64,000 nt of DNA, taken from the NCBI RefSeq assembly GCF_013364355.1, contig NZ_CP054931.1, positions 2,542,001 through 2,606,000 of the forward strand, given 5' to 3'. The position numbers and the translations under genes were made by a program. The notes under the pieces are model-generated. The model searched no databases. It was not told where the DNA came from and saw only the letters and a program-made list of their open reading frames with translations. Positions within the stretch are counted from its first letter, which is position 1. Every line of letters starts with the position of its first letter. Below are positions 17,677 through 55,418 of the stretch, one piece after another. Origin of the DNA: Stenotrophomonas sp. NA06056 (GTDB taxonomy: Bacteria > Pseudomonadota > Gammaproteobacteria > Xanthomonadales > Xanthomonadaceae).

Positions 17677-17772
17677 GGGGCGGTGTCGGATTGCGGGGTG
17701 TCAGCCGCATGGATGCGGCTGCCAAGCCTACAGGGACGTACTTGCGGCGTCCCCGCCATCCGACACCGCCCC
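17677..17772 (-). repeat. Structured hairpin element, copy A
   Basis: Arms 17677-17698 and 17751-17772 pair over 22 bp with one mismatch. Read on the minus strand, hairpin 2 is the standard AGCCGCA-TCCA-TGCGGCT. Hairpin 1 is a variant (AAGTACGTCCCTGTAGGCTT) replacing the usual CCCA-TCCA-TGGG at the same length. Same family as the elements at 22846, 23101, 43388, 44470 and 55321. Confidence 0.8.
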
Positions 17773-22845: not shown

Positions 22846-22947
22846 GGCGGGGTGGGTCCGGTTGCGGGGGACGCCGTGAATCCGTCCATGGAGGCTCGGT
22901 CGCGCCATCCATGGCGCTCACGCCCCCGCAACCGGACCCACCCCGCC
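22846..22947 (+). repeat. Structured hairpin element, copy B
   Basis: Arms 22846-22870 and 22923-22947 are perfect 25-bp complements. Core: GACGCCGTGA, hairpin 1 TCCG-TCCA-TGGA, linker GGCTCGGTC, hairpin 2 GCGCCA-TCCA-TGGCGC, then TCAC, which can pair with GTGA. Flanked on the right by TTCGACAGTTTCC. Confidence 0.85.
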
Positions 22948-22984
22948 TTCGACAGTTTCCTGCGATCTGTCGGAACGACTCTTG

Positions 22985-23023
22985 GGGTCAGATCCGTTTT
23001 CCGTAGGAAAACGGATCTGACCC
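22985..23023. repeat. Perfect palindrome with 18-bp arms
   Basis: Arms GGGTCAGATCCGTTTTCC (22985-23002) and its complement (23006-23023) around a 3-nt loop GTA. It lies midway between structured elements B and C. Similar GGGTCAG... hairpins are, to my knowledge, common in Stenotrophomonas. Confidence 0.9.
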
Positions 23024-23053
23024 TGGTTTGGATTTCGATATCTGGGAGATTTC

Positions 23054-23076
23054 ATCCACGCATGGCGTGGATCTAC
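23054..23076 (-). repeat. SMAG-type (GTAG) REP element
   Basis: Same ATCCACGC/GCGTGGAT palindrome as at 6048 and 17587; head on the minus strand. Confidence 0.9.
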
Positions 23077-23100
23077 TGCAGGTCGCGACGATCTGTCGAA

Positions 23101-23204
23101 GGCGGGGTGGTGTGGGTTGGCAGGACCGTTGGCGCCATGGATGGCGCCATCGAGCCCCCATGGATGGGTTTACGGCGCGTCCTGCCCACCCACACCGCCC
23201 CGCC
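23101..23204 (-). repeat. Structured hairpin element, copy C
   Basis: Arms 23101-23126 and 23179-23204 pair over 26 positions with one mismatch and one G-T wobble. Minus-strand core: hairpin 1 CCCA-TCCA-TGGG and hairpin 2 GGCGCCA-TCCA-TGGCGCC. Inverse orientation to copy B. Confidence 0.85.
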
Positions 23205-43339: not shown

Positions 43340-43570
43340 GGGATTGAAGAGCGTTGCGGGTTTGTCGCAGCGGTAGATTTCCTGGCTGAGGGCGCGATCA
43401 GCCCCAGCCGGGACACGCCGTAAACCCATCCATGGGGGCTCGGTCGCGGCATCCATGCCGCTCACGGTCCCGTCTGGGGCTGATCGCGCCCTCCTGACAC
43501 TCTCCGGCGCATCAATGCCGCGAAGTGATCATTGAAAATCAAATTCGAAAGCAAAGGCAGAAGCAGAGCT
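43340..43570. other. edd-eda gap carrying a structured repeat
   Basis: Structured element D (43388-43493) fills half of the gap. The AT-rich 43520-43560 stretch (GTGATCATTGAAAATCAAAT) before eda could hold a separate eda promoter. Confidence 0.6.
43388..43493 (+). repeat. Structured hairpin element, copy D
   Basis: Arms 43388-43414 and 43467-43493 pair over 27 positions with one mismatch. Core: CACGCCGTAA, hairpin 1 CCCA-TCCA-TGGG, linker GGCTCGGTC, hairpin 2 GCGGCA-TCCA-TGCCGC. Arms unrelated to those of the other copies. Lies inside the edd-eda unit. Confidence 0.85.
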
Positions 43571-44469: not shown

Positions 44470-44565
44470 GGGCAGGTTGGGTTCGCGGGGGTGTGAGCCG
44501 CATGGATGCGGCGACCAAGCCCCCATGGATGGGTTCACGGCGTCCCCCGCGAACCCAACCTGCCC
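44470..44565 (-). repeat. Structured hairpin element, copy E
   Basis: Arms 44470-44491 and 44544-44565 are perfect 22-bp complements. Minus-strand core: hairpin 1 CCCA-TCCA-TGGG and hairpin 2 GCCGCA-TCCA-TGCGGC, then TCAC pairing with GTGA. The flank GGAAACTGTCC at 44453-44463 is the complement of the CAGTTTCC flank of copy B. Confidence 0.85.
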
Positions 44566-55320: not shown

Positions 55321-55418
55321 GGTGGGGTCACCCAGGGCAGGACACGCCGTGAACCCTTCCATGGGGGCTCGATGGCGCCATCCTTGGCGCCAACGGTCCT
55401 GCCCTGGGTGACCCCACC
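55321..55418 (+). repeat. Structured hairpin element, copy F
   Basis: Arms 55321-55343 and 55396-55418 are perfect 23-bp complements. Core: ACGCCGTGAA, hairpin 1 CCCT-TCCA-TGGG, linker GGCTCGATG, hairpin 2 GGCGCCA-TCCT-TGGCGCC. Arms share no sequence with copy D. Confidence 0.85.

Follow-up and report, generated by a model that had tools for sequence, protein, structure and literature searches.

Short palindromic repeats and hairpin-rich regulatory RNAs comprise several groups with which the repeat described here, referred to as the fork, can be compared. ERIC-like repeats and MITEs are palindromic intergenic repeats of about 100 bp with an unknown mobiliser, and the fork is like them in these traits; their sequence and fold, however, differ from those of the fork, in which the arms vary while the core and an outer tail are kept. 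Palindrome-associated elements of the IS200/IS605 type carry subterminal hairpins and show a preference for one strand. The fork likewise has hairpins, a strand preference and, in one carrier genome (G140), a target-like TCC at array junctions, but G140 gives no Y1 transposase match and no copy lies beside the Y1_Tnp genes examined. The known Csr/Rsm decoy RNAs are single-locus sRNAs. According to the accounts cited below, these RNAs (CsrB, RsmX/Y/Z, RsmU) present several hairpin loops of the ANGGAN type per molecule at a spacing fit for one dimer, as does the fork, whereas the fork is dispersed in more than 100 copies, has long variable arms and finds no match in Rfam. REP, BIME and REPIN repeats with their RAYT transposases, including SMAG of Stenotrophomonas maltophilia, share with the fork the character of short intergenic high-copy palindromes that occur at gene ends and in inverted pairs. 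REPs are defined by a terminal GTAG or CGTC tag and a length of 20–40 bp (PMC3733652), and SMAG is described as a hairpin that bears a GTAG tag and has a consensus of 23 bases (PMC2613905); the fork, in contrast, has no such tag, forms a three-way junction and shows no RAYT link in the loci examined.

High-affinity Csr/Rsm sites are described as ANGGAX hexaloops on a stem closed by a C-G pair, the N and X bases being looped out and variable, and one Csr/Rsm dimer bridges sites 10–63 nt apart, with an optimum above 18 nt (PMC4005645; PMC7652899). For Xanthomonas genomes, the relevant passages of PMC7694677 give no homologue of CsrB or RsmX/Y/Z and present RsmU as a 3'-UTR sRNA confined to that genus. 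An sRNA screen in Xanthomonas (612 candidates, in a strain that may or may not carry the repeat) reportedly yielded two homologous groups only, which speaks against the RNA reading preferred below. Against this background the fork looks like an apparently undescribed family of interspersed palindromic repeats, and a literature search with most subscription journals outside its coverage found no paper on it.

Copies, arrangement and taxonomic range

The whole stretch of DNA analyzed (64,000 nt, hereafter the window) holds six copies of 96–106 bp (A to F, Table 1), all of them found where the initial annotation had placed them and with the perfect arms that it attributed to B, E, and F. That annotation read the repeat in the orientation that shows TCCA loops (hereafter the original orientation); the opposite strand, which displays GGA loops, is here called the F strand. 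For each of the six copies none of 200 shuffled sequences folded as well (z −7.4 to −10.1). A covariance model built from the inner 69 positions of the six copies (R1) recovered exactly these copies in the window at 80–94 bits, the next match scoring 12.7 bits, and paired GGA-loop octamers at 20-nt spacing occur in the window six times, that is, at the six copies. At Rfam gathering scores the repeat is unmatched in the window, the sole match being a tRNA elsewhere, with no Csr/Rsm decoy family, and a lax search of the copy D stretch gave low-scoring unrelated matches only, so that the absence from Rfam presumed at the outset holds. The idea that D and E are the two ends of one composite around eda was rejected, as the 1.1 kb between them is the eda-like gene.

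Table 1. Fork copies of the window and their loops. Copies are given by the original orientation, GGA loops by the strand on which they are read as GGA (F strand).
Feature	Position	Strand	Remarks
Copy A	17677..17772	-	Solo copy
A hairpin 2 GGA loop	17708..17715	+	CATGGATG, folded strand
A hairpin 1 GGA loop	17731..17738	+	CAGGGACG
B/C locus flanks			rsmD-like gene (PF03602) and htpG-like gene (PF00183) on either side
Copy B	22846..22947	+	Left partner of convergent pair B/C; arms perfect, commonest class
B hairpin 1 GGA loop	22883..22890	-	CATGGACG
B hairpin 2 GGA loop	22906..22913	-	CATGGATG
B/C spacer	22948..23100	.	Contains 3' tails of B and C and a GTAG-type REP (23054-23076)
Copy C	23101..23204	-	Right partner of convergent pair B/C
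C hairpin 2 GGA loop	23136..23143	+	CATGGATG
C hairpin 1 GGA loop	23159..23166	+	CATGGATG
Copy D	43388..43493	+	Gap between edd-like (PF00920) and eda-like (PF01081) genes
D hairpin 1 GGA loop	43427..43434	-	CATGGATG
D hairpin 2 GGA loop	43450..43457	-	CATGGATG
Copy E	44470..44565	-	Gap between eda-like gene and LuxR-type response regulator gene (PF00072, PF00196)
E hairpin 2 GGA loop	44501..44508	+	CATGGATG
E hairpin 1 GGA loop	44524..44531	+	CATGGATG
Copy F	55321..55418	+	3' of tRNA-Glu; atypical loops TTCCAT and ATCCTT in the original orientation
F hairpin 1 GGA loop	55356..55363	-	CATGGAAG
F hairpin 2 GGA loop	55379..55386	-	CAAGGATG

The family is larger than first reported. A search of the source genome (4.52 Mb, one contig) with R1 gave at least 150 matches, the weakest of the best 150 at 76 bits, and the 78 stretches around those matches contain 173 matches at E ≤0.01 (161 of at least 70 bits and 12 of 27–54 bits), a number that is a lower bound for the whole genome; the best 150 of the 173 form the source-genome alignment (A3). 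Copies are dispersed and intergenic (148/150, by rough gene calls of our own). Neighboring copies less than 700 bp apart are convergent in the original orientation in 39 of 39 cases in the source genome (59/59 including weak partners) and in 49 of 50 cases in G038, a genome of a different species, and the partners lie mostly 220–390 bp apart in both. Convergent pairs also occur in other genera (L209, L214, L217, L220, L226, L234, L235; also L306). In one genus (g18) they are organized in tandem arrays, where the adjacency of pairs produces same-strand and divergent neighbors too (e.g., L238). Three loci of this genus (L240, L242, L243) carry two fork subfamilies as convergent pairs with a tandem period of about 293 bp, and a run of six same-orientation forks about 227 bp apart (L338 365-1570) breaks the convergent rule. 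The spacers of pairs (L033-L110; window 23054-23076) contain GTAG REPs (GTAGATCCACGC..GCGTGGAT) and other small palindromes.

Searches with R1 found the repeat in 48 of the 61 sampled genomes of the genus, source genome included (E ≤1e-6; 13 without it), in 54 of 198 genomes and 16 of 54 genera of the family, and in 64 of 369 genomes of the class Gammaproteobacteria, distributed over 56 of 271 genera and, by hand count, 49 families (E ≤1e-5). A phylum sample of 398 genomes, for which the share of other classes is not given, contained 27 positives, all of them Gammaproteobacteria. Individual R1 matches include those of Lysobacter penaei (80 bits) and Vulcaniibacterium tengchongense (40 and 38 bits). 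With copy B as query one plasmid match was obtained (Marinobacter adhaerens pHP-187, 54.9 bits by R1, with A-rich inner arms) and none in phage sequences; the class-level core as query matched neither plasmids nor E. coli genomes.

Fold of the element and the strand that is kept

The fork consists of one long arm (the stem) and two hairpins, which together form a three-way junction. The initial annotation had proposed that a branched fold with two TCCA loops is under selection, and covariation far above shuffled and slid controls in two sets of sequences supports the proposal, with the reservation that both alignments were fitted to R1, which favors the modeled structure. Among the best 150 source-genome matches (128 distinct), 96.6% of the paired cells of the extended structure are indeed paired (79.7% in shuffled alignments), double changes occur at 16 of 22 pairs and the covariation score is 0.434, vs. 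0.142 shuffled and 0.04–0.08 slid; further pair types number 24, fewer than the 28.0 of the shuffles. The multi-genus set (103 sequences, Stenotrophomonas included) has 96.0% paired cells, double changes at 17 of 22 pairs, a score of 0.474 (0.161 shuffled, 0.04–0.09 slid) and 50 further pair types, more than the 38.8 of the shuffles. The outer arms lie outside R1, yet their median length is 28 bp in other genera and class-wide.

The C-G pairs that close the two loops are invariant in source-genome copies (128/128 each) and almost so in the multi-genus set (96/98 and 95/97), although they are not alone in this, as the basal G-C pair of hairpin 1 is fixed as well (98/98, multi-genus); most of the remaining pairs co-vary, and the base swaps originally described in hairpin 2 are present. 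The lower stem of hairpin 1 is GCC/GGC (or GCT/AGC) with a five-base one-sided bulge and shows double changes at two of its three pairs in the source-genome set. The bases that pair are these, whereas the GTGA-TCAC pairing of the initial annotation does not hold in general: the core varies among GTGAA, GTAAA, and GCAAG.

Mismatches in the arms are strongly asymmetric. Over the inner 23 arm pairs of the 150 source-genome copies, A.C accounts for 70 cells (45 unique contexts) and G.T for 9 cells (9 contexts), A.C thus being about five times as frequent. The same asymmetry occurs in 77 copies of other genera (63 vs. 13 contexts, p 5e-9; taken from 103 matches after leaving out near-duplicate loci and copies too close to an end) and in 45 class-wide copies (38 vs. 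7 cells, p 3e-6; taken from 52 matches after leaving out L313 at a contig end, five copies of the L338 array and one weak L323 match); the counts are 7 vs. 1 in 17 orthologs of the rsmD site (p 0.07) and 5 vs. 2 in 12 further copies of the genus (p 0.45). Among 50 copies whose arms belong to the commonest class, the ratio of G>A to C>T changes is 15:7 in the arms and 27:50 in the flanks (p 0.007), and since arms and flanks deviate in opposite directions, a general mutational strand bias does not account for the asymmetry. G140 leans in the same direction, on low counts (arms 5:2, core 2:0, linker 5:11). Read on the opposite strand, an A.C mismatch is a wobble pair, G.T or G.U; the strand whose fold is kept, which the initial annotation had left open, is therefore the F strand, i.e., the one opposite to the original orientation.

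Twin GGA loops and the CsrA/RsmA likeness

On the F strand both loops are C-ANGGAN-G hexaloops. Among the best 150 source-genome matches the motif occurs in 150/150 copies of hairpin 1 and 149/150 of hairpin 2, and in the multi-genus set in 96/103 and 94/103, respectively; class-wide, 38 of 45 copies have it in both loops and 7 in one, a conservation that is partly ascertained since R1 contains the loops. The distance from GGA to GGA is 20 nt in all 149 source-genome copies with exactly two motifs (150 examined) and 20 or 21 nt in each of the 38 class-wide copies with both motifs. In comparable hairpins the motif was found in 9 of 2811 outside the repeats, vs. 164 of 345 inside. G140 also contains a partner palindrome of different sequence; 29 copies of it were examined, one of them without an anchor, and this loop is present in all 28 that were scored. 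Variation in hairpin 1 is concentrated at the two N positions (T, G, A, or C at one; T or C, rarely A or G, at the other) and is rare elsewhere. In the predicted fold the GGA bases have mean unpaired probabilities of 0.89 and 0.78, both exceeding 0.5 in 117 of 149 copies; strict hexaloops appear in 0 of 150 minimum free energy structures, in our opinion because the folding program closes an A-U pair within the loop, and the unpaired probabilities were used instead.

Thus the fork combines the traits published for Csr/Rsm sites, namely ANGGAN on a C-G stem, two sites within 10–63 nt and loops predicted to be accessible. The likeness was noticed post hoc, and which positions vary is a stronger point in its favor than conservation. 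A CsrA match is present in 59 of 64 repeat-positive and 254 of 305 repeat-negative genomes of the class (p 0.08), a weak link, and one repeat-positive genome that is 98% complete (G445) has no CsrA match.

The interpretation preferred here, tentatively and at slightly less than an even chance, is that the fork is a non-autonomous mobile repeat of Gammaproteobacteria which would display a bivalent CsrA/RsmA ligand. The kept form would be the F-strand fork, comprising a variable stem of about 28 bp and two C-ANGGAN-G hexaloop hairpins 20 nt apart. RNA transcribed from the F strand would bind one CsrA/RsmA dimer through both loops, each transcribed copy could thereby act as a bivalent decoy or regulatory site with a possible effect on expression, and the more than 100 copies per genome may amount to a distributed CsrA/RsmA sink. 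The repeat would have spread as single forks and convergent pairs, by means of an enzyme not found here, and after insertion the arms would drift with compensation.

In tandem gene gaps, 14 solo copies of the source genome are F-sense and 13 antisense (15 vs. 17 on the first list); the counts are 8 vs. 22 elsewhere and 4 vs. 14 in a class-level set with other gene calls, all of these gene calls being crude. As there is no F-sense preference in such gaps, the F-strand RNA would need antisense transcription or a promoter of its own, and the lack of a sense preference with respect to neighboring genes speaks against a simple 3'-UTR role.

A more far-reaching version, in which a selfish class-wide repeat would carry as payload mobile CsrA/RsmA decoys (at least 160 in the source genome) that set or buffer free CsrA/RsmA, perhaps chiefly where the usual decoy sRNAs are absent, is conceivable though rather doubtful. 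Should CsrA/RsmA bind the loops, a global regulator would have a heritable setting in the copy number of a mobile repeat, and many gammaproteobacterial intergenic regions would contain unrecognized regulator sites. Even without CsrA, the fork represents a widespread structured repeat family absent from Rfam, with a strand-specific fold and a strong rule of convergent pairing, and R1 provides the means to test these readings on public genomes and RNA data.

Mobility, arm turnover and alternative explanations

Sites of the repeat turn over. In 12 related genomes the gene gap that holds copy A in the window has no R1 match and no twin-loop motif, and contains other small palindromes. One stretch (L138) is without the copy present in L136 and L142, which may represent either a pre-insertion site or a deletion. 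G140 has 75 R1 matches, many of equal score, and the copies inspected are near-identical in the core. In eight stretches of this genome (L278-L285, e.g., L283 3515-4350), all 14 loci with a full-length middle copy have only left halves to one side of it and right halves to the opposite side; scores drop mostly, though not strictly, outward and the numbers on the two sides are often unequal. By eye, the left halves stop in the hairpin-1 loop and TCC is found at the array junctions; TTCC is part of the 3' tail of source-genome copies. We read these arrays as younger copies nested in the hairpin-1 loop of older ones, a picture complicated by the unequal numbers and the loss of older middles. Solo copies with the F strand on the lagging-strand template outnumber the others by 35:20 in the source genome (p 0.058; 42:30, p 0.19, before weak partners) and by 30:15 in G038 (p 0.036), the terminus having been placed roughly in these counts; given that the two genomes have sites in common the counts are not independent, and the bias is suggestive only.

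Bursts, patchy spread, site turnover, the lean toward the lagging-strand template, the half arrays that end in the hairpin-1 loop and the L138 site without a copy would all suit a purely DNA-level mobile element. The F-strand fork would then be an end read by a single-strand transposase or another structure-reading enzyme, the loops would serve as cleavage or target signals and the CsrA likeness would be due to chance. This is the most serious alternative, possible although on the whole improbable: it leaves unexplained the 20-nt spacing and why just the two N positions vary, the F strand is favored in 99 of 150 copies by RNA folding parameters but in 82 by DNA parameters, and no enzyme was found. 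Y1_Tnp is present in 58 of 61 genomes of the genus, among them 10 of the 13 that lack the repeat, and in 8 of the 12 carrier genomes of other genera, those without it being G140, G206, G090, and G119. The examined flanks of Y1_Tnp genes contained no copy above 14 bits (0/3 loci in the source genome and 0/14 others), with one 13-bit match. A RAYT/Y1_Tnp enzyme was rejected as mobiliser, as it is missing from four of the 12 other-genus carriers, including the burst genome G140, and its genes have no convincing copy in the flanks examined. No gene-bearing autonomous copy was recognized in the loci inspected, and no transposase-like ORF was seen by eye between the widely spaced convergent partners in G356 and G384, whose interiors were covered in part. 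Between two distant convergent forks of G356 (L312 370-702) lies an ORF of 110 aa that looks, by eye, like a CcdB-type toxin.

The left arms (25 bases) comprise 108 distinct sequences among 150 copies, the commonest being that of copy B (26 copies); 29 of the 150 copies have no arm mismatch and 90 have one or two. The initial annotation reasoned that, as the arms differ, copying cannot explain the spread. Shared arm classes imply that whole elements have been copied, so this does not stand as worded, but in-place compensation occurs too, as two-sided changes at one orthologous site indicate. At the rsmD-htpG site, B and C both have a match in 8 of 12 related genomes (L121-L132). In the right-hand copy there, the position that precedes the G-run carries C paired with G in the window, A paired with T in L122, L124, L125, and L126, and T paired with A in L121 and L128-L131; one-sided arm mismatches are found nearby in L121, L126, L129, and L131. 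L136 and L142 have, at one site, copies with wholly different yet paired arms. Insertion of the core into existing palindromes, also suggested earlier, is not supported, given the tail GACAGWTTCC, which is conserved outside the 3' arm: a loose GACAG-like anchor is recognizable in 141 of 150 copies and, in the WTTCC that follows it, T stands at the second position in 127 and C at the last in 127. Conserved sequence thus borders the variable arms both inside and outside, and the core was not simply dropped into old palindromes.

Covariation of the arms could instead arise mainly from replication template switching that rewrites one arm, the core being kept as the copies are young. Arms that are perfect or nearly so in most copies agree with this, as does the near absence from the core helices of one-sided standard-pair intermediates, apart from the loop-edge A-U/G-U pair and one outer pair of hairpin 2. 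However, the excess of A.C over G.T follows the orientation of the element, unlike the flanks, and recurs in other genera and class-wide, which makes template switching unlikely as the main cause; it may act together with selection on the fold.

A REP/REPIN-type repeat moved by a RAYT transposase was already disfavored and is very improbable. The fork shares with this class its intergenic, palindromic, high-copy nature and inverted pairs, and GTAG REPs occupy the pair spacers; nevertheless, none of the six window copies bears a terminal GTAG or CGTC tag, 96–106 bp is to be compared with 20–40, no convincing copy occurs at the Y1_Tnp genes examined and G140 carries the fork without Y1_Tnp. A RAYT gene of the source genome (L119 1289-2152) has GTAGATCCACGC REPs on its flanks, including a tight tandem run of six, with no fork near. 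That the forks are intrinsic transcription terminators at gene ends is scarcely credible, for although the hairpins are very stable and, by crude gene calls in stretches fetched around copies, copies are over-represented in convergent gaps (45 occupied, 17 empty) and under-represented in divergent ones (12 occupied, 25 empty), inspection of the flanks by eye showed no T-run 3' of either strand at the six window copies, and the loops and core are conserved beyond the needs of a terminator.

Some copies are visibly rearranged. In S. maltophilia EA1 (L127 9774-9843) the center of a pair, between both hairpin-1 loops, is swapped for an unrelated palindrome and the two outer halves are left. In L124 (9549-9610) another palindrome stands in place of the left half, with a breakpoint near hairpin 1, and in L128 (9544-9600) hairpin 2 is collapsed; the breaks in L124 and L128 are both at hairpins.
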